Shown here: one piece after another, positions 4,950-45,725 of the stretch
Layout of the letters: every line of letters begins with the position of its first letter
How positions within the stretch are numbered: the first letter of the stretch is position 1
Source: Streptomyces sp. NBC_00237
GTDB lineage: Bacteria; Actinomycetota; Actinomycetes; Streptomycetales; Streptomycetaceae
Assembly: GCF_026342435.1 (NCBI RefSeq)
Contig: NZ_JAPEMT010000001.1
Coordinates: forward strand, 62,001 to 126,000
Length of the DNA: 64,000 bases
Direction of reading: 5' to 3'
Position numbers and translations under genes: made by a program
The notes under the pieces: generated by a model
Seen by the model: only the letters and a program-made list of their open reading frames with translations
Databases searched by the model: none
What the model was told of the DNA's origin: nothing

Positions 4950-6606
4950 CGGAGCTGGCGGAGTCGGCAGAGTCGGCAGAGTCAGCGGAGTCAGCGGAGT
5001 CAGCGGAGTCGGCGGAGTCGGCGGAGTCGGCGGAAGGGTGTCCGGCCTTCGGGAGATGGCGTACGGCGAAGAGGCCGAGCGCCGCGTGCAGTGCGGCGGT
5101 CACCGCTGCGGCCACGTGCAGGCCCGTCACGAAGGAGGACTTCGCGGCGTCGGCCAGGGCGGGGGCGAGGCCCGGGAGTTTCAGGGTCGCGTCGAGGGTG
5201 CCCGCGAGGTCCGGGCCCTGGAGGCGGAAGAGCAGGGCGGCCAGGGAGCCGAGGAGGGCGATGCCGAGGGCGTTGCCGATCTCGTTGCTCGTCTCGGCGA
5301 TGGCGGCCGCGGAGCCCGCGCGCTCCGGGGGGACGGCGGAGATGGCCGTGTCGGCGACGACGCTGAAGGAGATGCCGTAACCGACTCCGGCGACGACGGT
5401 GGAGGCGACGTACCAGGTGATGCCCTGCGTGGCGGTGGTGGCGAGGAGCAGGAGCAGGCCCGTGGTGATCAGGAAGTGGGTCGTGATGAGGGCGGCGCGG
5501 GTGCCGGTGCGGGCCACCAGGGCGGGGGTGGCGATGCAGGTGACGGTGAGGGCGGCGGCGCCGGGGAGGGCGATGAGGGCGGCGTTCAGAACGGTCAGGC
5601 CCAGGACGGACTGGAGGTAGATGCCGCCGAGGTACGCCGTCGCCGACCAGGCCGCGAGGGGGAGGAGGCCCGTGATCGCGGCGATCGTGAAGACCCGGTC
5701 GCGGAAGAGGCCGAAGTCGATCAGGGGGTGGGGGAGGTGGAGTTGGCGGCGGACGAACCAGGTGAGGGCCGCGATCCCGACCGCTCCGGCGGCCAGCGCG
5801 AGGGGGCTCGGGCCTTCGGCCGCCGTGTGCTTGACGCCGTACACGGAGAGCAGGATTCCGGCGGCGGAGAGCACCACGCTCAGGGCGTCGACGCGGCCGG
5901 TGCGGGTGGTGCGGACCTCGCGGAGGAGGGTGGGGGCGAGGACCAGGAAGAGGGCGACGACGGGGAGGTTGATGAGGAAGACCGAGCCCCACCAGAAGGA
6001 GTTGAGGAGCTGCCCGCCGACGACCGGGCCGATCGCGAAACCGGCGGCGAAGGTGGCGGCGAAGATGCCGATCGCCTTCGTACGGGCGCGGGGGTCGGGG
6101 AAGAGTTCGCTGAGGACGGCGAGGGCTGAGGGGAGGAGGGTGGCTCCGGCGACGCCCATCAACGCGCGGAAGGCAATGAGGAGTTCGGCGGAGGTGGCGA
6201 AGGCCGCGCCCGCCGAGGCCAGGCCGAAGACCGTCGCGCCGGTCAGGAGGAGTCTGAGGCGGCCGTGGCGGTCGCCGATCGTGCCGAACGCGACGAGGAG
6301 CGAGCCGACGGCGAATCCGTACACGTCCAGGATCCAGAGGGCCTGGTCGGCGGTCGGGGACAGTGCCTCGGTGACCTTTGGCATCGCGAGGAAGAGGACC
6401 GAGCTGTCCATCGCGACGAGCAGGACCGGGCCGAGGACGACGAGAAGACCGAGCCATGCCTTCGGCCCTGGCCGGGCGGGGGCCGGGGTCGGGGTCGGGG
6501 TCGGGGTCGTGTGGGATGCGGTCGGTGTCGGCTTCGGCGGGCGCGGTGCGGTCGGTGTCGGCTTCGGCTTCGGCTTCGGCGGGCGCGGTGCGGTCGGTGT
6601 GTTCAT
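4897..6606 (-). CDS. MFS transporter, DHA2 family (14 TM)
   Basis: This is a proton-driven drug-exporter-type permease of the inner membrane. The first transmembrane helix contains LLVAMDSSVLFLAMP, the DHA2 motif with a membrane Asp, followed by GTIGDRHGRLRLLL (motif A) and GVAGATLLPSALAVL (motif C-like). About 14 hydrophobic segments are visible. The first 45 residues are a Pro/Thr/Lys repeat and the last 35 include eight SAD repeats, both encoded by tandem DNA repeats and probably disordered. The start is the ATG at 6606; upstream frame is non-conserved. It is divergent from the XRE/MmyB-like gene at 6710, the likely regulator. Confidence 0.9.
   Translation of the reverse strand: MNTPTAPRPPKPKPKPTPTAPRPPKPTPTASHTTPTPTPTPAPARPGPKAWLGLLVVLGPVLLVAMDSSVLFLAMPKVTEALSPTADQALWILDVYGFAVGSLLVAFGTIGDRHGRLRLLLTGATVFGLASAGAAFATSAELLIAFRALMGVAGATLLPSALAVLSELFPDPRARTKAIGIFAATFAAGFAIGPVVGGQLLNSFWWGSVFLINLPVVALFLVLAPTLLREVRTTRTGRVDALSVVLSAAGILLSVYGVKHTAAEGPSPLALAAGAVGIAALTWFVRRQLHLPHPLIDFGLFRDRVFTIAAITGLLPLAAWSATAYLGGIYLQSVLGLTVLNAALIALPGAAALTVTCIATPALVARTGTRAALITTHFLITTGLLLLLATTATQGITWYVASTVVAGVGYGISFSVVADTAISAVPPERAGSAAAIAETSNEIGNALGIALLGSLAALLFRLQGPDLAGTLDATLKLPGLAPALADAAKSSFVTGLHVAAAVTAALHAALGLFAVRHLPKAGHPSADSADSADSADSADSADSADSADSASSVTSDLPAARPAQAVPSP
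4952..5035 (-). repeat. 9-bp tandem repeat encoding (Ser-Ala-Asp)n
   Basis: About nine imperfect copies of the unit GTCGGCGGA/GTCAGCGGA lie in the 3' end of the MFS gene. They keep the frame and give an SAD-repeat tail. Copy number in such repeats commonly varies between strains. Confidence 0.75.
6484..6508 (+). repeat. G-quadruplex-prone GGGGTC repeat at the MFS 5' end
   Basis: Four GGGG tracts separated by TC lie on the strand opposite to the MFS coding strand, within the codons for its Pro/Thr N-terminal repeat. The sequence meets the standard G4 rule; folding is inferred, not shown. Confidence 0.55.
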
Positions 6607-35680: not shown

Positions 35681-35822
35681 GCATAGGTATGCCCCAACTT
35701 GCCCTCAACACGGCGTTATACGGTGCTTGCACACAGTGCACATGTCTTGTGATGCTATGACCGCTTTTGACGGATGAGTGGAACGAAGTGTCCACATACC
35801 GACCGAAAAAGGGGTGTGGCGT

Positions 35823-36746
35823 GTGACTGTGCCGGCCAGTACTGCTCCGCAAGCCCCGCCCCACCAGGCCCAAACGTCTCAGCAGCACCAAGAGCCCCAC
35901 CAGCCCCCGGAGCCTCTCCAGCCCTCGGAACCACCGCTCGTCGAGACCCCGGACCGCGTTCCCGGCACCCCCGCCGCCCGCACCCGTGGCGCCGACACCC
36001 GGGCCCTCACGCAGGTGCTGTTCGGCCAGCTCAAGGGCCTGGCGCCCGGCTGCGGGGAGCATTCCCGGGTACGGGCGGCACTGATCGAGGCGAACCTCCC
36101 GCTGGTCCGGTACGCCGCCGCCCGGTTCCGCTCGCGCAACGAGCCGATGGAGGACGTCGTCCAGGTCGGCACCATCGGGCTGATCAACGCGATCGACCGC
36201 TTCGACCCGGACCGGGGCGTGCAGTTCCCGACCTTCGCGATGCCCACCGTCGTCGGCGAGATCAAGCGGTACTTCCGCGACAACGTCCGCACCGTGCACG
36301 TCCCGCGCCGCCTCCACGAGCTGTGGGTGCAGGTCAACGGGGCCACCGAGGACCTCACCACCGCCCACGGCCGGTCCCCCACGACCGCCGAGATCGCCGA
36401 GCGGCTGCGGATCACCGAGGAGGAGGTCCTCGCCTGCATCGAGGCGGGCCGCAGCTACCACGCGACCTCCCTCGAAGCCGCCCAGGAGGGCGACGGGCTG
36501 CCAGGACTGCTCGACAGGCTCGGTTACGAGGACCCCGCGCTCGCCGGGGTCGAGCACCGGGATCTGGTCCGCCACCTGCTCGTACAGCTCCCCGAGCGCG
36601 AGCAGCGGATCCTGATGCTGCGTTACTACAGCAATCTGACGCAGTCTCAGATCAGCGCCGAGCTGGGCGTTTCCCAGATGCACGTCTCGCGTTTGCTCGC
36701 TCGCAGCTTCGCACGTCTGAGGTCCGCAAATAGGATCGAGGCGTAA
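35823..36746 (+). CDS. sigF: RNA polymerase sigma factor SigF (SigB/SigF family)
   Basis: Sporulation-type alternative sigma factor. Region 2 ([40 protein letters not shown]), region 3 and region 4 ([40 protein letters not shown]) are complete. The N-terminal 60 residues are Pro/Gln-rich, as in S. coelicolor SigF, whose gene is likewise next to sigN. The start is uncertain: GTG 35823 has GGGG eight bases upstream; GTG 35829 gives the MPASTAPQ start I recall for SigF. In S. coelicolor it acts late in spore maturation. Confidence 0.9.
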
Positions 36747-36873
36747 TCCTCACGGGTATATCCCGCTGGAAGCTGTGGGGGGAAGAAATGCCGCACACCC
36801 CCTCTTTCCTGCATGTATTTGTCGACTTGGCGCTACAGCGTGTTGCCGACATGTGACATTCTGCTGGAACCGC

Positions 36874-36899
36874 GTTTGCCGCAGCTCCGCCGCCGGTAT
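36874..36899 (+). promoter_or_regulatory. Candidate SigB/F-type promoter of sigN
   Basis: GTTT (36874-36877), 16 bases, then CGGTAT (36894-36899) match the SigB-family GTTT-N14-16-GGGTAT pattern with one mismatch. The transcript would have a leader of about 60 bases before the ATG at 36970. Confidence 0.45.
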
Positions 36900-36969
36900 T
36901 CAGGTGGAGGCTGCTTCCTTCGACGGGAAGCGTCTGCCGCTACCGTCCGCGACCCTAAGAGGGGGTGGC

Positions 36970-37866
36970 ATGTCCGTAGAACAGGGCAGTTCGAAGGTGC
37001 TCATCAAGGATGCGCCCGACATGCTCGACCGCGCTCCGGCGATCACCGCGATTCCGGCTCAGCCCGGACCCGCACCGGCGCCGCCGATCGTCTCCCAGCC
37101 GGAGGCACTCGACACCCGCACGCTGTCCCGCTCCCTGTTCCTGCGGCTCGCCGTCCTCGACAAGGACAGCCCGGAACGCACGTACGTCCGTGACACCCTG
37201 ATCGAGCTCAACCTCCCGCTCGTGCGGTACGCCTCCGCGCGCTTCCGCTCCCGCAACGAGCCGATGGAGGACATCGTCCAGGTCGGCACCATCGGCCTGA
37301 TCAAGGCGATCGACCGCTTCGACTGCCAACGCGGCGTGGAATTCCCCACGTTCGCGATGCCGACCGTCGTCGGCGAGATCAAGCGCTTCTTCCGCGACAC
37401 CTCGTGGTCGGTGCGCGTCCCGCGCCGCCTCCAGGAGCTGCGGCTCGCGCTCACCAAGGCCAGTGACGAGCTCGCCCAGAAGCTGGACCGCTCGCCCACC
37501 GTGCCCGAACTCGCCGCCGTACTGGGCGTGTCCGAGGAGGACGTCGTCGACGGCCTCGCGGTCGGCAACGCGTACACGGCCTCCTCGCTCGACTCGCCCT
37601 CCCCGGAGGACGACGGCGGCGAGGGCTCGCTCGCGGACCGGCTCGGCTACGAGGACACGGCGCTCGAAGGCGTCGAGTACCGCGAGTCGCTGAAGCCGCT
37701 GCTCGCCAAACTCCCGCCGCGCGAACGGCAGATCATCATGCTGCGCTTCTTCGCGAACATGACGCAGTCGCAGATCGGCGAGGAGGTCGGCATCTCGCAG
37801 ATGCACGTCTCCCGGCTGCTCACCCGTACGCTCTCGCAGCTTCGGGAAGGGCTGATCGCCGACTGA
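36970..37866 (+). CDS. sigN: RNA polymerase sigma factor SigN (SigB/SigF family)
   Basis: Second SigB/F-type sigma factor, 223 bp after sigF and about 60% identical to it by eye in regions 2-4 ([74 protein letters not shown]). The N-terminal 45 residues are Pro/Ala-rich. The ATG has GAGGGGG upstream. The pair matches sigF-sigN of S. coelicolor, where SigN acts in aerial development. Its own upstream region carries a SigB-type promoter, so autoregulation or cross-control by a paralogue is likely. Confidence 0.88.
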   Translation: MSVEQGSSKVLIKDAPDMLDRAPAITAIPAQPGPAPAPPIVSQPEALDTRTLSRSLFLRLAVLDKDSPERTYVRDTLIELNLPLVRYASARFRSRNEPMEDIVQVGTIGLIKAIDRFDCQRGVEFPTFAMPTVVGEIKRFFRDTSWSVRVPRRLQELRLALTKASDELAQKLDRSPTVPELAAVLGVSEEDVVDGLAVGNAYTASSLDSPSPEDDGGEGSLADRLGYEDTALEGVEYRESLKPLLAKLPPRERQIIMLRFFANMTQSQIGEEVGISQMHVSRLLTRTLSQLREGLIAD

Positions 37867-39071: not shown

Positions 39072-39253
39072 GCGCGTGACCCTAGCGAAGGTGGGTACCC
39101 GAGCGACACCCCAGGGCCCCACTGTGCGCGGAGTAACGGCCGGACACCCCCCTGGCACCCGCCGACCTGCGGCTTTACCCGGCCCCTCGGAGCGCTTGAC
39201 CGGCCGATCAGGGAGCCTTTTGGATTCCTTTGCCCGATCAGCCCGAATTTAAT

Positions 39254-39296
39254 TTGCCTGAAGCAACCAACTAATCCTATCGTTGCCCTAAGCAAC
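39254..39296. promoter_or_regulatory. Two MarR-type operators
   Basis: TTGC-CTGAA-GCAA (39254-39266) and GTTGC-CCTAA-GCAAC (39282-39296) are perfect inverted repeats with five-base centres, about 29 bp apart. They lie in an AT-rich patch just upstream of the MarR gene and are the likely autoregulatory sites. Confidence 0.72.
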
Positions 39297-39337
39297 AAGA
39301 TGAACCGAGACGTGCCGAAAACCCGCAGGGAGGTGCC

Positions 39338-39898
39338 GTGGCCGCACAGAGTCATTACGAGGAACTGGCCCGCCAGCTCAGTGCCATCGGCGCGGTGAAA
39401 CGGGGCCTCGGGCGCATCCTGCCTCCCGAGTGCCCGCCCGGCTCCGCCGCCGTACTCACGCTTCTCGACCGGCACGGCGAGATGAGGCTCAGTCGCCTCG
39501 CCGAGCTGATGGCTGTCGACATGTCGGTAACGAGCCGTCACGTCACCCACGTCGCCGAACGCGGCTGGATCGACCGCTCGCCCGACCCGGGCGACAAGCG
39601 CTCGCGCATCCTCCGCCTGACCCCGGACGGCGAAGCCGTTCTGCGCGAGCTGTCCAGGCGCACCACCGAAACCCTCGCCCACACCCTGGGCGACTGGTCC
39701 GACGACGAGGTCGGACAGCTCAACGCGATGCTCGCCCGCCTGCGCGACAGCTTCGGCGACTGCCGTTCCTGGCCGCCCGTGCCGTTCGACTGCACCGCCG
39801 CACTCACCGCCTCAGCGCTCCCCGCCCCGGCACTCACCGCCCCGGCACCCGGCACCGAGGCGCTCACGACTTCCGCGATACCCGCAACACCCGCGTAA
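39338..39898 (+). CDS. MarR family regulator
   Basis: A winged-helix repressor of 186 residues: the recognition segment LSRLAELMAVDMSVTSRHVTHVAERGWIDR is followed by the wing DPGDKRSRILRLTPDGEAVL. The last 40 residues are an Ala/Pro/Thr repeat (APALTAPAPG) unlike the family core. The GTG start has GGGAGG upstream. It is the first gene of a unit with the MFS exporter 15 bp downstream. The paired palindromes in front suggest autoregulation and control of exporter and YceI gene. Confidence 0.9.
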   Translation: MAAQSHYEELARQLSAIGAVKRGLGRILPPECPPGSAAVLTLLDRHGEMRLSRLAELMAVDMSVTSRHVTHVAERGWIDRSPDPGDKRSRILRLTPDGEAVLRELSRRTTETLAHTLGDWSDDEVGQLNAMLARLRDSFGDCRSWPPVPFDCTAALTASALPAPALTAPAPGTEALTTSAIPATPA

Positions 39899-39913
39899 AG
39901 GACAAGGATTCAA

Positions 39914-42394
39914 TTGGCTACGACCACACCCACCGGTGTGCGGGGCGGCCACGCCAAGCACGGAGCCCCCGCCGCTCCTGCCTCCGACAGCTCCGCACCG
40001 ATGTCACACCGCCAGATCATGGAAGCCCTCGCGGGCCTCCTGCTCGGCATGTTCGTCGCGATGCTGTCGTCGACGATCGTGTCGAACGCCCTTCCCGAGA
40101 TCATCCGCGACCTCGACGGCACCCAGAGCGCGTACACCTGGGTCGTCACCTCCGCCATGCTGTCGATGGCGGTCACCACCCCCATCTGGGGCAAGATGGC
40201 GGACCTCTTCAGCAAGAAGCTGCTGGTCCAGATATCGCTGGTCATCTTCGTGCTGGGCTCGGCGCTCGCCGGCCTCTCGCACAACACCGGCGTCCTGATC
40301 ACCTTCCGCGTGCTCCAGGGCATCGGCACCGGTGGTCTGGTGGCGCTGTCCCAGATCATCATCGCCGCGATGATCCCGCCGCGTGAGCGCGGCCGGTACT
40401 CCGGTTACATCGGCGCGACGATGGCCGTGGCCACCGTCGGCGGCCCGCTGCTCGGCGGCGTCATCACCGACACCGACTGGCTCGGCTGGCGCTGGTGCTT
40501 CTACGTGGGCGTGCCGTTCGCGGCCATCGCACTCGTCATCCTGCAGAAGACGCTGCACCTGCCGGTCATGAAGCGCAAGGTCAAGATCGACTGGTTCGGC
40601 GCACTCTTCCTGGCCGCCTCCGCGTCGCTCCTGATGATCTGGGTGACCCTCGCGGGCGACAACTACGCGTGGAACTCCTGGCAGACGTACGTGATGACGG
40701 GCGGCTCCGTCCTCCTCGCGGTCATCTTCGTGATCATCGAGTCCAAGGTCGCCGAACCCCTCATCCCGCTGCGCTTCTTCCGCAACCGCACCATCGCGCT
40801 GACCTCGGCGGCGAGCCTGTTCGTCGGTGTCGCGATGTTCGGCTCGACGGTCTTCATGAGCCAGTACTTCCAGCTCGCCCGGGACAAGTCGCCGACGATG
40901 TCCGGCGTCATGACGATCCCGATGATCGCGGGCCTGTTCATCTCCTCCACGGTCTCCGGCGCGGTCATCACCAAGACCGGCCGCTGGAAGGGCTTCCTGG
41001 TCGGCGGCGGCATCGGCCTCACCGCAGGGCTCGGCCTCCTCTCCACCATCGCTTACGACACCGAGTACTGGCAGGTCGCCGTCTACATGGCGGTCCTGGG
41101 CCTCGGCCTCGGCATGATGATGCAGAACCTGGTCCTCGCCACGCAGAACCAGGTCAAGCCGCAGGAGCTCGGCGCGGCCAGCTCGCTGGTCGCCTTCACC
41201 CGTACCCTCGGCGGCGCCATCGGCGTCTCGGCGCTGGGCGCGGTCCTCTCCTCCCGCATCACGCACTACGTCGAGGACGGCCTGGACGCCCTCCACATCA
41301 AGCTCCCCGGCGGCGGCACGGGCGGCGGCAGCGGCATCCCCGACATGGACGCCCTCCCGGCCCCGATCCGAGGCGTGATGGAGAGCGCGTACGGCGACGG
41401 CATCGCGGACGTGTTCCTCTACGCGGCCCCGATCGCGCTGCTCGGCCTGATCCTGGTCCTCTTCGTCAAGGAGGTCGCACTGAAGACCTCCCACGACGGC
41501 GACGTCCCGGCCGCCGCCACCGCCTCGGAGACCCCGGTGGAATCGGCCGCCGAGGGCCTGGCCGGAGTGACCCCGGTCCACGAGGAGGCACCCGTACCCA
41601 CGCAGCCGCTGCCGACCACCCCGCCCACCGGACGCACCCTGCACGGCACCGTCCGTACGGCGGAGGGCACGTCGGTCCGGGGCGCGGCCGTCACCCTCAT
41701 CTCCCTCGCGGGACGCCAGCTGGGCCGCTCGGTGGCCCAGCCGGACGGCCGCTACGCACTGGACGCCCCCGCGGCGGGCTCCTACGTCCTGATCGCCTCC
41801 GCCGACGGCTTCCAGCCGCAGGCGTCGACGGTCACGGTCGGGGACGAGCCGATCGCGTACGACATCCTCCTCTCCGGCACCAGCGGCCTCGGCGGAACCG
41901 TCCGCAGCGCGGCCGACGGTACGGGTGTGGCGGACGCGATGGTGATCGTGACGGACGTCCGAGGTGACGTCCTGGCGACGGGCAAGTCGAGCGAGAACGG
42001 TGAATTCGCCTTCGCCGAACTGGTCCCCGGCACGGTGACGGTCGCGGTGAACGCGTCCGGCTTCCGCCCGATGGCGCTCCCCGTCGACATCGGCGGCACG
42101 GGCATCACCCGCATCGAGGCCGTCCTCCAGGCGGGCGCACTGGTCCAGGGCACGGTCCGCGCGGGCACCGCCCGACGCCCGCTCCCCGACGCCCGCGTCA
42201 CGATCATGGACGCGGCCGGGAACGTGGTCTCGACCTCCACCACCGGTGAGGACGGCGCGTACGCCTTCACCGACCTGGACGCGGGCGAGTACACGGTCAT
42301 CGCGACGGGCTACCCGCCGGTCGCGGGCAACCTGACGGTGGCGGGGCGCGGCGTGGACGCGCACGACATCGAACTCGCCCACCCGGGCGAGTAG
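39914..42394 (+). CDS. DHA2 exporter fused to three carboxypeptidase-regulatory-like domains
   Basis: Residues about 30-525 are a 14-helix DHA2 permease (MFVAMLSSTIVSNALPEI; GKMADLFSKKLL; GIGTGGLVALSQIIIAA). Residues about 570-826 are three consecutive beta-sandwich modules of the CarboxypepD_reg type (starts LHGTVRTAEGTSVRGAAVTLIS, LGGTVRSAADGTGVADAMVIV, VQGTVRAGTARRPLPDARVTI; each with a GxYxLxA/GEYTVIATG strand). Fourteen helices place this tail in the cytoplasm, where such modules are unusual. TTG start with AAGGA upstream. It follows marR by 15 bp and precedes a YceI gene carrying one related module. Confidence 0.88.
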   Translation: MATTTPTGVRGGHAKHGAPAAPASDSSAPMSHRQIMEALAGLLLGMFVAMLSSTIVSNALPEIIRDLDGTQSAYTWVVTSAMLSMAVTTPIWGKMADLFSKKLLVQISLVIFVLGSALAGLSHNTGVLITFRVLQGIGTGGLVALSQIIIAAMIPPRERGRYSGYIGATMAVATVGGPLLGGVITDTDWLGWRWCFYVGVPFAAIALVILQKTLHLPVMKRKVKIDWFGALFLAASASLLMIWVTLAGDNYAWNSWQTYVMTGGSVLLAVIFVIIESKVAEPLIPLRFFRNRTIALTSAASLFVGVAMFGSTVFMSQYFQLARDKSPTMSGVMTIPMIAGLFISSTVSGAVITKTGRWKGFLVGGGIGLTAGLGLLSTIAYDTEYWQVAVYMAVLGLGLGMMMQNLVLATQNQVKPQELGAASSLVAFTRTLGGAIGVSALGAVLSSRITHYVEDGLDALHIKLPGGGTGGGSGIPDMDALPAPIRGVMESAYGDGIADVFLYAAPIALLGLILVLFVKEVALKTSHDGDVPAAATASETPVESAAEGLAGVTPVHEEAPVPTQPLPTTPPTGRTLHGTVRTAEGTSVRGAAVTLISLAGRQLGRSVAQPDGRYALDAPAAGSYVLIASADGFQPQASTVTVGDEPIAYDILLSGTSGLGGTVRSAADGTGVADAMVIVTDVRGDVLATGKSSENGEFAFAELVPGTVTVAVNASGFRPMALPVDIGGTGITRIEAVLQAGALVQGTVRAGTARRPLPDARVTIMDAAGNVVSTSTTGEDGAYAFTDLDAGEYTVIATGYPPVAGNLTVAGRGVDAHDIELAHPGE

Positions 42395-42454
42395 TCCGGA
42401 CCTCCGGCCCCCGGGACGCGTTTCGAGCGGAGACGTGTTCCGGGGCTGGTGGAG

Positions 42455-42502
42455 TCGGGGGCGGCGGGCAGGGGACGGCCTGCCGCCCCCTCTTTTTCTT
42501 TT
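42455..42502 (+). terminator. Terminator after the exporter gene
   Basis: A GGGGGCGGC...GCCGCCCCC hairpin (one arm bulged) is followed by TCTTTTTCTTTTT. The stretch 42518-42553 then has four GAGCTTCG repeats before the YceI gene. Confidence 0.7.
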
Positions 42503-42572
42503 TGCGTACGTACGGAAGAGCTTCGACGAGCTTCGGAGCTTCGGAGCTTCGAAGGGCAAGGCAGGTAGCGGC

Positions 42573-43385
42573 ATGGGACTTCGCGCACAGGTACGGACCC
42601 GGGACGGCTGGGCCGTGCAGCACGCGGTGGTGACGGTCACCGACATGACCGGCACGCAGGTGCTGCGGGCGGCGGCGGACGCGGACGGGGTCGTCACCGA
42701 CGCGGCGACGCTCGCCCCCGGCCCGTACACGGTGATCGTGACGGCGGTCGGCTACGCGCCGGTCGCCTCGACGGCGCTGGTCACGGCGGCGGGGCGGATC
42801 GAGGCGGGGAACGTGGTGCTGGCCCGTCAGGGCGGCGTGGAACTCCCGCCGCCGGGCGTCTGGACCATCGACCCCGTCCACTCCTCGGTGGGCGCGGTCG
42901 CCCAGCACCTGGGTATCTCCAGCGTGCGGGGCCGGTTCACGGACTTCTCCGGCCGGATCGAGATCGCGGAGGACGTGGAGAAGTCGCGCGTCGAGGCGGT
43001 CATCTCGTCCGCCACGATCGACACGGGCAACGCGATGCGCGACGGGCACCTGAAGTCGGCGGACTTCCTGGACGTGGCCGCCCACCCCGAGATCACGTAC
43101 CGCAGTACGGGTCTGGTCCCGGCCGGACCCGACCGGTGGACGGTCCACGGGGACCTCGCCCTGCACGGGGTGGTCCGCCCGGTGGACCTGGACCTGAGCT
43201 ACCTGGGCACGGGGCCGGACCCGTGGGGCGGGGTCCGGGCGGCGTTCCGCGCGACGGCGGATCTGCGGCGGGACGACTTCGCGATGAACTACAACCAGGT
43301 GGTGCAGGCGGGGATCTCGGCGATCGGGGCCACGCTGAGGGTGGAACTGGACATCCAGGCCGTACAAGGGTCTGCGCCCCTTTAG
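42573..43385 (+). CDS. YceI-family lipocalin with N-terminal carboxypeptidase-regulatory-like domain
   Basis: Residues 1-85 are a beta-sandwich closely like the third module of the exporter next door (both contain GPYTVIVTAVGYAPVA / GEYTVIATGYPPVA). Residues about 92-268 are a YceI domain, a beta-barrel that binds isoprenoid-like lipids (WTIDPVHSSVGAVAQHLGISSVRGRFTDFSG, HLKSADFLDVAAHPEITYRS, LALHGVVRPVDLDLSY). No signal peptide is seen, so it is cytoplasmic. Homologues of this fusion occur beside the exporter in other Streptomyces as I recall. The shared module suggests the two proteins interact. Confidence 0.87.
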   Translation: MGLRAQVRTRDGWAVQHAVVTVTDMTGTQVLRAAADADGVVTDAATLAPGPYTVIVTAVGYAPVASTALVTAAGRIEAGNVVLARQGGVELPPPGVWTIDPVHSSVGAVAQHLGISSVRGRFTDFSGRIEIAEDVEKSRVEAVISSATIDTGNAMRDGHLKSADFLDVAAHPEITYRSTGLVPAGPDRWTVHGDLALHGVVRPVDLDLSYLGTGPDPWGGVRAAFRATADLRRDDFAMNYNQVVQAGISAIGATLRVELDIQAVQGSAPL

Positions 43386-43777
43386 GGGCGCGGGTCCGCA
43401 TCCCTGTGCGGCTCCGCCGCGCGCACGCTCCCGGCTCCGCTGAGCCTGAGGGGCGCGGGGAACTGCGCGCCCAGCCCCGACGCACCCGCACATCCGAACC
43501 CCCAAGCCTCGCGAGTTTAGGTGAAGGGGTGGGGAGGGGCGGCCCGCCGCAGGCGCACCGGGGTGCGGCGCACCTGATGGCGGAGGTAACGGCGGGCGGC
43601 ACCGGGGCGGGCCCGGAGCGAGGGGGCCGCCCCCTTGCCCGCCCGTTCCGCCCCCGGGGGGCGGCCCCGCCGCCCAAGGGGGCTGGGCGGAAGCCCCGCC
43701 GCCCAAGAGGGCTAGGCGGAGGCAGAGGCCAAGGGGGCTAGGCGGAGGCAGAGCCAAGAGGGCCGGGGGGTGGAGGG
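43386..43777. repeat. 392-bp gene-free region: dispersed repeat and tandem GGCTAGGCGGAGGCAGAG units
   Basis: The first 107 bases are the second copy of the dispersed element at the window start. From 43678 to 43755 units of GCCCAAG-AGGGCTAGGCGGAGGCAGAG repeat about 2.5 times. No gene is visible. Confidence 0.6.
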
Positions 43778-44614
43778 TCAGGTGCGGCGGGCGAAAGAGC
43801 CGGGCTCGGGCGGCCGCCCCCCAGTCTGAAGCACCAGCTCGTAACACAGCTCACGAAGCTTGACGTTGCGCCCCTGAGAGGCCCGCCGCAGCACCCCCAG
43901 AGCCGCCTCAGCAGGACACCTCTGCCGCGCCATCACGATCCCGATCGCCTGGTCGATCACGAAGCGCGACTCCATCGCCGCCCGCAGATCCCGCGCCGCC
44001 TCCGTCTCCTTCTCGATCCGCTCGGCGACGGCGACCGCCCCCGCCGCCTGCTCCGCGAACCGCCGCGCCACCTCGCGCCGGTCGGCGAAGGCCCCCGGCT
44101 CCCGCGAGTACAGGTTCAGCGCGCCGGCCGTGAAGCGGCGGGACTCCGCGTCGGACACCGTCGAGGGCGGCCGCCCCTGCACCGACAGCGGCACCGCGAA
44201 GACCGACCGGATGCCCTGCCCCGCGGCCAGCCCCGGATACGGCCCCCAGCGCTCCTCGGCGAGGGTGTCGGCGACGTACTCCTCGATCCCGTTCTCCAGG
44301 CTGCACACACACGGCCCGGCCTCGACCTCGTACTGCAGGGCATCCAGCGTGAGCGCCTGCGAGTCGCTGCTGGCGGTGGTCACGAGACGCCCGTTCCTGC
44401 GCATGGTGACGCTGCACGAGTCGGCGCTCTCGACCGCGTGCACGGCCTGCTCGGTGAGCTCCTGGAGGAAGGAGTCCAGGCCCCGCCAGTCGGTGAGCGC
44501 GTCGTGCATCGACGCGAGGTCGAAGCCGTTCACCCGGCTCCGTCCCCGACCGTCTCCCGGTTCGCCTCCCGGACCGCCTCCCGTGCCGGCGATGGCGTCA
44601 GTCATGTCAGTCAT
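43778..44614 (-). CDS. GAF-ANTAR regulatory protein
   Basis: A GAF sensor domain (residues about 45-190; SVTMRRNGRLVTTASSDSQALTLDALQYEVEAGPCV) is linked to a C-terminal ANTAR RNA-binding domain (about 200-262; LRAAMESRFVIDQAIGIVMARQRCPAEAALGVLRRASQGRNVKLRELCYEL). ANTAR proteins bind tandem RNA hairpins and prevent transcription termination. The ATG at 44614 has GGAAG upstream. It lies 77 bp downstream of a second GAF-ANTAR gene on the same strand; the two may act as one unit. Confidence 0.9.
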   Translation of the reverse strand: MTDMTDAIAGTGGGPGGEPGDGRGRSRVNGFDLASMHDALTDWRGLDSFLQELTEQAVHAVESADSCSVTMRRNGRLVTTASSDSQALTLDALQYEVEAGPCVCSLENGIEEYVADTLAEERWGPYPGLAAGQGIRSVFAVPLSVQGRPPSTVSDAESRRFTAGALNLYSREPGAFADRREVARRFAEQAAGAVAVAERIEKETEAARDLRAAMESRFVIDQAIGIVMARQRCPAEAALGVLRRASQGRNVKLRELCYELVLQTGGRPPEPGSFARRT

Positions 44615-44691
44615 ACTTCCGCGCGTGCCCCAGATCCGGCCGGAAACTCCGTTCCGTCACTCACCGTCGCCACACCTTCATCACCCTGTCA

Positions 44692-45444
44692 TCACTCGGC
44701 GGCCGATGCGTCGACCATGCGCGACGCGATGTCACGGAGCTTCACGTTCCCCTTCTGCGAGGCACGCACCAGCCGGTCGAACGCCTCGGCGGCGTCGATG
44801 TTGAGCCGCCCCATGAGCAGCCCGGTGGCCTGCCCGATGACGTCCCGGGTGTGCATGGCCTCGGTCAGCTGCTCGGTCACGGCGACGGTCTCCAGGGCGA
44901 TCCCGGCGTACGCGGCGAGCAGTCGGCCCACCCGTACGACCGCCTCGTCGGCGAACGCGCCGGGCCGCTTCGCGTACAGGCTCAGCACACTGAACCGGCT
45001 CGGGTGGCCGCGCAGCCGCAGGAAGAGCGCGCAGCCGCCCGCGCCGTCGTCGACGACGGAGAGCGGGGTGTCCCACAACTCCTCGCCGGGCGGCAGGAGT
45101 TCGGACTCGGGTACGTCATCGGTGGTGGCGAGGGTACGCACCCTGCCGGAGCGCTCGACGACGAAGAGACCGGCGCGGTCCGTACCGGGAACGAGCTCCC
45201 GGGCGAGCCGTACGGCCGTGCGCGCGGTCTGCTCGCGGCCTTCGGCGGCGTGCAGTTCGAGCGCGGCGGAGGCCAGGGCATCGGCGAGACCGAACTCGGC
45301 CTGCCGGGAATCGACCTGCCAGGAATCGGCCTGCCGGGAATCAGCCTGCCCTGTGTCGACCTGCCGGGAATCGGCCAGTCTGAAATCGACCAGCCCAAAG
45401 TCGACTTGGTCATGCGGAATTTCGGGAATGTCGGACGCAGTCAC
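44692..45444 (-). CDS. GAF-ANTAR regulatory protein with pentapeptide-repeat linker
   Basis: The first 45 residues hold a (D/A)SRQ(V/A) pentapeptide repeat encoded by seven 15-bp DNA units. A GAF domain follows (ALASAALELHAAEGREQTARTAVRLARELVPGTDRAGLFVVERSG) and then an ANTAR domain (LTEAMHTRDVIGQATGLLMGRLNIDAAEAFDRLVRASQKGNVKLRDIASRMV). Two adjacent GTG codons could start; 45444 has AGAGG seven bases upstream. It is divergent from the STAS gene and in tandem with the other ANTAR gene, suggesting a stress-signalling cluster. Confidence 0.88.
   Translation of the reverse strand: MTASDIPEIPHDQVDFGLVDFRLADSRQVDTGQADSRQADSWQVDSRQAEFGLADALASAALELHAAEGREQTARTAVRLARELVPGTDRAGLFVVERSGRVRTLATTDDVPESELLPPGEELWDTPLSVVDDGAGGCALFLRLRGHPSRFSVLSLYAKRPGAFADEAVVRVGRLLAAYAGIALETVAVTEQLTEAMHTRDVIGQATGLLMGRLNIDAAEAFDRLVRASQKGNVKLRDIASRMVDASAAE
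45301..45405 (-). repeat. 15-bp tandem repeat (7 units) encoding a pentapeptide
   Basis: Units such as CTGCCGGGAATCGAC and CTGCCAGGAATCGGC repeat seven times without break and keep frame. The last two units have diverged. They encode DSRQV/ADSRQ-like pentapeptides in the linker of the ANTAR protein. Confidence 0.85.
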
Positions 45445-45725
45445 CACGAACCTCTTCGGCGTGCACGGCCCAGGGTGCGGCCGTGCCCGGGAGAGCTCCG
45501 CAGCACATTCCCGACTGCGAGCAAAGGACGAACAGACTCTATCCGCTTCTGTCCTACGGCAAAGCAAGCAGCAGTGGATCAGCCAGGCCCCGACGCCAGT
45601 GCAAAGCTTCGGCGGGCATTGTCCGGACACCCTCGACCGCCCGCCGCCCGCATGGTCCAATGAAGTTCCCGGTCAGGAAGCGGCCCCCCGACCACGCCGC
45701 GCATCATCGCGTCGGCTTCGGACAG

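Follow-up and report, generated by a model that had tools for sequence, protein, structure and literature searches.

A DHA2-type exporter with a three-module tail and an adjacent YceI protein are jointly present or absent in Streptomyces and may form a carrier-to-pump relay

RifP, the rifamycin exporter, is repressed by RifQ, a regulator of the TetR type. As far as the available parts of the reports go, RifP is an MFS protein with 14 helices (PMC4551226, PMC11732027), SCO4024 is 62% identical to it (PMC4551226), and SCO4023 and SCO4022 encode a PMT_2 protein and a ppm1 homologue, respectively (PMC5882110). LprG-Rv1410 of mycobacteria is described, in the accessible portion of its report, as an MFS exporter with a lipid-binding partner, LprG being a lipoprotein on the outer side that takes triacylglyceride from the pump (PMC10576003). 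According to similarly partial sources, BcnA and other bacterial lipocalins of the YceI family bind several classes of antibiotics (PMC5350466), and a YceI protein of Marinobacter is associated with solvent tolerance (PMC4596283). The excerpted account of the MgxR operon of Burkholderia (Bxe_B3016-B3019) presents regulator, transporter-like and YceI genes as a proposed efflux system with methylglyoxal as the effector (PMC4349456). Our literature search returned no description of an exporter with a tail such as the one reported here or of its link to a YceI protein; subscription journals and preprints lay outside its coverage, so the absence is unproven.

The locus described here lies in the window, by which we mean the whole stretch of 64,000 nucleotides of Streptomyces sp. 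NBC_00237 that was analysed. Three genes follow one another on the forward strand, in the order MarR regulator, DHA2 exporter and YceI protein:

39338..39898, + strand: MarR regulator, 186 aa (PF01047, 48.5 bits against a cut-off of 24.6, 8.1e-13)
39914..42394, + strand: DHA2/EmrB-type exporter with a three-module tail, 826 aa, TTG start (TIGR00711 and PF13620)
42573..43385, + strand: module-YceI protein, 270 aa, no signal peptide seen (PF04264, 149.1 bits, 1.6e-43)

The exporter starts 15 nt after the MarR gene, and 178 nt separate it from the YceI gene. Two sigma-factor genes, whose translations read as SigB/SigF-like, and two ANTAR-domain genes on the opposite strand flank the unit (window 35774-37866 and 43778-45660). 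A scan of the locus for sigma-70 promoters gave no match. Identity of the locus with SCO3366/SCO3367 was considered and dropped, that pair being tied to a TetR-family study in the part of the source available.

As in LprG-Rv1410, two genes here pair an MFS exporter with a soluble protein that has a predicted hydrophobic pocket. The partner here, however, has no visible signal peptide and would act inside, before the pump, and the accessible description of LprG-Rv1410 mentions no tail modules (PMC10576003). Starting as it does on a strand of its module, the YceI protein does not have the form of an exported lipoprotein of the LprG-Rv1410 type. With BcnA it shares the YceI fold (fold matches 5ixh, 5ixg and 7bwl). 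Whereas BcnA, as partly documented, is secreted and captures drugs outside, the YceI protein of the window carries an extra module and no export signal was seen (PMC5350466); it adjoins an exporter instead of lcoA, the cytochrome b561 gene that the available text links to BcnA (PMC9113575). The MgxR operon is alike in its grouping of genes but has another transporter and methylglyoxal as effector, and no modules figure in the portion of its description at hand (PMC4349456).

The exporter had been read in the initial annotation as a DHA2 permease of 14 helices with three carboxypeptidase-regulatory-like modules on an intracellular C terminus. The profiles bear out the family and the modules: the protein passes the DHA2/EmrB profile (TIGR00711, 246.2 against a cut-off of 230.2) and scores 122.3 bits against a cut-off of 32.3 with PF13620, in three stretches. 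Its parts are as follows:

40007..41461, + strand: membrane head with 14 predicted helices, residues 32-516 (AlphaFold model)
41492..41629, + strand: disordered linker between head and tail, residues 527-572, pLDDT below 50 (AlphaFold model)
41636..41845, + strand: tail module E1 (PF13620 profile match)
41888..42127, + strand: tail module E2 (PF13620 profile match)
42143..42376, + strand: tail module E3 (PF13620 profile match)

The AlphaFold model (27 sequences, mean pLDDT 82.4, pTM 0.62) has 14 membrane helices, then the linker, then a tail of beta-strands. A plain hydropathy scan found 13 helices, missing the second one, and zero membrane helices in the tail. Because the modelled helix count is even, where an odd number would put the tail outside, and because the inner loops are charged, the tail and both ends of the exporter are predicted to lie on the cytoplasmic side. 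Among the solved relatives of the head is 8pnl, named a putative triacylglyceride transporter. By its profile and 14 predicted helices we assign the exporter to the DHA2/EmrB family, with proton-driven drug efflux as its putative activity.

The second protein combines one further module with a YceI domain. The long frame opens at 42435, and several orthologues align from an ATG at 42573, which in the model stands directly on the first strand of the module. No signal peptide is therefore seen, as the initial annotation had also noted, and the protein is predicted to stay in the cytoplasm. Its module (residues 3-83) is barely above the PF13620 cut-off (32.8 against 32.3), and the YceI domain occupies residues 97-263:

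42579..42821, + strand: N-terminal CarboxypepD_reg (transthyretin-like) module of the YceI protein (PF13620; fold match 5aq0)
42861..43361, + strand: YceI domain, a lipocalin-like barrel (PF04264, 1.6e-43; fold matches 7bwl, 1y0g and 1wub)

In the model (18 sequences, mean pLDDT 81.5, pTM 0.60) the barrel matches the solved YceI proteins 7bwl, 1y0g, 1wub, 5ixh (BcnA) and 5ixg (BcnB). The module matches the TTR-like domain of carboxypeptidase D (5aq0; TMt 0.82, E 1.6e-3), more weakly than the barrel matches its relatives; the fold search on modules covered this one, and those of the exporter were called from PF13620. The PF04264 match and the barrel fold place the protein in the YceI family, with a predicted ligand pocket and putative binding of lipids, polyisoprenoids or drugs.

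We examined how regularly this kind of YceI protein (YceI-A) adjoins an exporter tail. YceI-A occurs at full length in 40 of 61 Streptomyces genomes, with 41 genes in all (71-100% identity), each of which lies 89-408 nt behind an exporter tail, measured from the tail stop to the YceI match. The exporter frame is broken as assembled in two of these loci (L067 and L079), and in a third (L082) the last 47 tail residues match and no more. Across the class, 22 of 246 genomes hold YceI-A (at least 49% over nearly full length), 17 of them Streptomyces in a set that partly overlaps the 61 genomes; the gene adjoins a tail in all 22, and 11 of 33 tail-bearing genomes in this search are without YceI-A. 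Among the best 80 of 301 named loci, which again partly overlap the other sets, a tail lies within 600 nt of YceI in 77 of the 77 testable, that is, with at least 900 nt upstream; the other three are cut by the contig. These loci span Microbispora, Planotetraspora, Sphaerisporangium, Nonomuraea, Streptacidiphilus, Actinomadura, Streptomyces and others. Gap lengths, reported for 39 of the 80, are 29-32 nt between matches in nine of ten named Microbispora loci (198 nt in M. corallina) and 26-311 nt in the remaining loci of this group from outside Streptomyces. Counted from the exporter stop, the YceI match lies at 24 nt in three Microbispora loci (L190-L192), at 3 nt in G090 (L194) and at 69 nt in G269, and in L190 and L194 the YceI start codon reads as an ATGA overlap with the exporter stop. 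An apparent fusion of exporter and YceI in L204 was rejected, the extra part of its longer frame being DUF1622, not YceI.

The tail and YceI-A are a real unit, jointly present or absent. A per-genome count over 247 Streptomyces genomes with a completeness of 95% or more gives both in 180 and neither in 61, with the tail alone in four and YceI alone in two. These six mismatches comprise two genomes with a broken YceI gene right behind the exporter as assembled (G334 and G359), one with the tail end at a contig edge (G377), one whose contig opens with YceI and cannot be judged (G383), and two true exceptions, G240 and G453, with no YceI, intact or broken, in place behind the tail. The two-part unit proposed in the initial annotation thus has firmer ground, in adjacency and joint presence, than one sequence could have given it, its cytosolic side being predicted. 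A head of the same branch (at least 65% identity) is found in 60 of the 61 Streptomyces genomes, 40 with tail and YceI and 20 with neither; in none of these 20 does YceI-A stand beside the tailless exporter.

On a tree of 68 heads (L095 and L098 were left out, and L194 has no head in its contig), the tail label needs seven changes, at least four of them forced by well-supported branches. In the Streptomyces rows, YceI changes with the tail in four of four well-supported independent pairs (p 0.125, four pairs being too few for significance). Seven well-supported pairs differ in YceI; the tail goes along in four and is unchanged in three. The tree rows G219, G240 and G139, and G453 outside the tree, have kept the tail with YceI missing, so the tail can persist without YceI. 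Distances over 38 loci (nine broken, cut or distant ones were left out, as was L098, which has no MarR) correlate at r 0.75 between tail and YceI and at 0.72 between tail and MarR, so that the tail-YceI pair is not singled out.

Two tailless genomes carry remnants of the missing part. In G030 (locus L212) the 17 C-terminal tail residues remain, followed by a spacer and the 19 C-terminal residues of YceI; in G008 the last nine tail residues remain, a weak match (E 0.33) but one at the very end of the protein. In our reading, L212 underwent two distinct deletions, which took away tail and carrier and kept the pump in an open frame. This bears on the idea that the neighbours were simply lost together in single deletions, with no functional tie between them. 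One deletion could take the tail end and YceI, the genes being adjacent; the layout of L212, with tail end, stop and spacer left between two deletions, speaks against such hitch-hiking, as does the retention of the pair across four family codes (f1, f17, f4 and f42) and with other heads. Among the inspected loci whose contig reaches far enough to tell, none had YceI-A without a tail. We consider it very improbable that the association is accidental in this way.

We tentatively favor, with somewhat less than even confidence, a direct working relationship: the exporter tail would serve YceI as a docking site, and the pump would receive a hydrophobic compound from it. Loci with other heads are informative here. 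In G014 (L098) and in three Nonomuraea loci (L248, L252 and L254), YceI and the tail accompany another MFS head, which shares 23-25% identity with that of the window; among themselves these four foreign heads share 68-96%. L202 combines a head and tail of the L098 kind and has no YceI, and tails on other heads with no YceI match in the locus were also found in L104, L106, L200 and L201. YceI follows the tail, not the pump head. It may instead be that the two proteins share a substrate and make no contact, YceI soaking up in the cytoplasm the hydrophobic compound that the pump removes, with the tail serving, for example, pump assembly. YceI proteins elsewhere bind antibiotics and give solvent tolerance, as far as the available parts of the reports tell (PMC5350466, PMC4596283), and pumps of a second branch with a similar tail occur without YceI-A. 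However, the head persists without YceI in all 20 tail-free genomes, and YceI keeps to the tail where the head is foreign or absent, which points to the tail and not to the substrate of the head. We regard a shared substrate without contact as somewhat unlikely.

The tail is also found without any pump. Locus L266, from a metagenome-assembled genome of Streptomycetaceae, has a free 256-aa three-module gene followed by YceI, with sigma-factor genes of the same kind upstream; neither a MarR nor a pump match was found in this locus. One palindrome, TTGCATGTAGCAA, is retained some 85 nt upstream of the free gene, with 0.14 expected in a locus of this size (25 of 200 shuffles). A second free 256-aa protein, P0242, on another metagenome contig is 88% identical to that of L266. 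The tail can thus stand alone, with the carrier beside it even then, one such genome being thin evidence. In L258 (Streptomyces humicola, about 5030-5050) we noted GAGGAGGAGTTGATG at the head-tail joint of the fused exporter, resembling how the free gene of L266 begins; translation starting internally at this point could yield a free tail. Further, an MMPL-type RND protein of another family code carries the same three-module C-terminal tail (L203 2024-5449, G067:C708; MMPL 283 bits, tail 36%). We also observed, in the genome of the window, an MFS protein with one C-terminal CarboxypepD_reg module (L125, G000:C2:152565-152801), whose head resembles the L098/Nonomuraea kind.

Because L266 has tail and YceI without a pump, their role need not be export. 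The two might make up a cytosolic complex that serves mainly for something other than loading: it would gate or sense for the pump, or act alone, the fusion to exporters being secondary. Besides the stand-alone gene of L266 and its free relative P0242, the occurrence of tails on an MMPL protein and on several MFS heads is in keeping with this. Yet all heads seen belong to exporter-type families, favoring a role in export, and pumps have repeatedly lost the tail while persisting themselves. We judge a complex of this kind unlikely, and retain loading of the pump by docked YceI as the preferred reading.

The counterparts of tail and YceI elsewhere behave differently. A second branch of tail-bearing exporters is present in 49 of the 61 Streptomyces genomes (tail about 47-55% identical, head 36-39%), and no YceI of the A kind was found alongside. 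Instead, 43 of 53 second-branch tails in these genomes have a gene of the SRPBCC type (PF10604, Polyketide_cyc2) 1.2-4 kb upstream. Examples, with this gene immediately ahead of the exporter, are L107 3708-4151 (in the genome of the window, G000:C2:533081-533521), L108, L109, L111 and L113. The SRPBCC-type gene is also present in 10 genomes without a second-branch tail, and we do not hold it to be a strict partner of this branch but a lead only. A second module-YceI fusion accounts for at least about 45 rows among the matches listed for the 61 genomes, and no tail was found in the eight of its loci that were fetched. Its representative in the genome of the window (L003 961-2034, G000:C1:1682762-1683544) lies beside genes reading as comEC and holA, with no exporter. 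Frequent occurrence of each fusion without the other, which the initial annotation had named as counting against its proposal, is therefore seen for these paralogues, the second branch and the second YceI fusion, but not for the pair studied here (180, 61, 4 and 2 genomes, as above).

We then compared the modules themselves, since the YceI module had been described as strikingly like the third module of the exporter. In the window, local alignment of the YceI module gives 104 with E1, 91 with E2 and 79 with E3. For comparison, it gives 99 with module three of the second exporter branch, 84 with the module of an unlinked YceI paralogue, a value between those for E2 and E3, and 76 with an unrelated MFS module encoded elsewhere in this genome. 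Averaged over 41 loci, identity to E1, E2 and E3 is 29.4, 31.2 and 32.7%, E3 being ahead by about 1.5 points, and the best partner is E2 in 17 loci, E3 in 15 and E1 in nine; exporter modules of L082, L095, L203 and L204 were left out of the comparison. With all three about equally similar, E3 as the origin or a special relative of the YceI module was rejected. The string match quoted in the initial annotation holds as a local likeness and does not extend to whole-module kinship with E3. Modules do align above background, and the YceI and exporter modules are homologous as a family: profile comparison of the YceI-A modules with the E1, E2 and E3 sets gives E values of 1e-7 to 3e-12, and with the module of the second YceI fusion 4e-13. 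Because no special kinship with E3 emerged, the proposed pairing of like modules draws on family membership and on nothing further in the sequences.

Upstream of the MarR gene are two palindromes, which the initial annotation had proposed as points of MarR control:

39254..39266, unstranded: putative MarR-type operator 1, TTGCCTGAAGCAA, exact palindrome
39283..39295, unstranded: putative MarR-type operator 2, TTGCCCTAAGCAA, exact palindrome

Both are exact instances of TTGCN5GCAA and the sole two in the window, where 0.38 are expected and two or more were found in 3 of 100 shuffles. Of 42 orthologous loci, 39 have the pair ahead of the MarR gene, with its members 28-29 nt apart, and 41 have at least one copy, against a background of 478 in 20,000 random pieces of the same loci. 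Consistent with the earlier proposal, the MarR gene next to the pump and the conserved palindromes point to a MarR-controlled efflux unit, in which operator binding is putative. Two palindromes are also present in 15 of the 20 tailless loci and one in two more (at least one in 17 of 20); of the three without, L230 had almost no upstream DNA. Since the palindromes are kept in tailless loci, MarR control seems to go with the pump, whether tail and carrier are present or not. No palindrome of the MarR kind was found in the 45 exporter-YceI gaps scanned.

The gap between exporter and YceI in the window contains one further element:

42457..42490, + strand: terminator-like hairpin with a T-rich run after it, in the exporter-YceI gap (hairpin scan)

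The stretch 42445-42510 folds at -36.7 kcal/mol (z -3.1), better than all but 1 of 200 shuffles; the single terminator-like site found in 39100-43800 compares with 1.3 in shuffles, a count not above chance. The hairpin core with GGGGACGGCC recurs in 20 of 42 orthologous gaps, the T run in two, and by a simple test 8 of 45 exporter-YceI gaps have a terminator-like hairpin. Because of this hairpin, a single transcript for MarR, exporter and YceI is not assured in the window. The YceI gene of Streptomyces may be partly transcribed from its own start, and in most Microbispora loci and in G090 it may be close enough to the exporter for co-transcription.

In the relay that we prefer, MarR would repress the unit until cargo frees it: a compound entering or arising in the cytoplasm would release MarR from the operators. 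The YceI barrel would take up the compound, the YceI module would dock on the exporter tail, and the cargo would pass from the barrel to the inner side of the pump and be expelled. The cargo could be antibiotic-like or another greasy small molecule. The two tailless loci tested with Pfam, L212 and L214, have a PMT_2 gene downstream, and L212 also has a GT2 gene behind it; these neighbours resemble SCO4023 and SCO4022, a likeness drawn from gene order and numbering, not from sequence. Because of this match, and because SCO4024 is 62% identical to RifP, we lean toward a cargo that is more antibiotic-like than isoprenoid. No result obtained here points to the isoprenoid-like cargo first suggested. 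Repression differs between the systems, with the TetR-type RifQ acting on RifP and a MarR regulator here. Nor does a tail appear in the accessible parts of the descriptions of RifP and SCO4024 (PMC4551226, PMC11732027).

The three-module tail might also be a transferable cytosolic loading dock on unrelated exporters (the DHA2 branch, the second MFS branch and MMPL), served by carriers with a hydrophobic pocket such as YceI and SRPBCC/Polyketide_cyc2 proteins. We view this extension as doubtful; if true, the dock would be a general carrier-to-pump relay at the inner side of the membrane.

Carboxypeptidase-regulatory-like modules are usually taken as extracellular, and those of this unit are predicted, against the usual reading, to be intracellular. 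Very hydrophobic compounds in the cytoplasm are mostly assumed to reach export pumps by partitioning into the membrane; if a pump had its own dock and worked with a soluble carrier, the hand-over would be cytosolic. Matched natural pumps exist with and without dock and carrier. In producers, antibiotic self-protection and yield could depend on such a pump, the head belonging, by gene order, to a family that published work links to rifamycin export.
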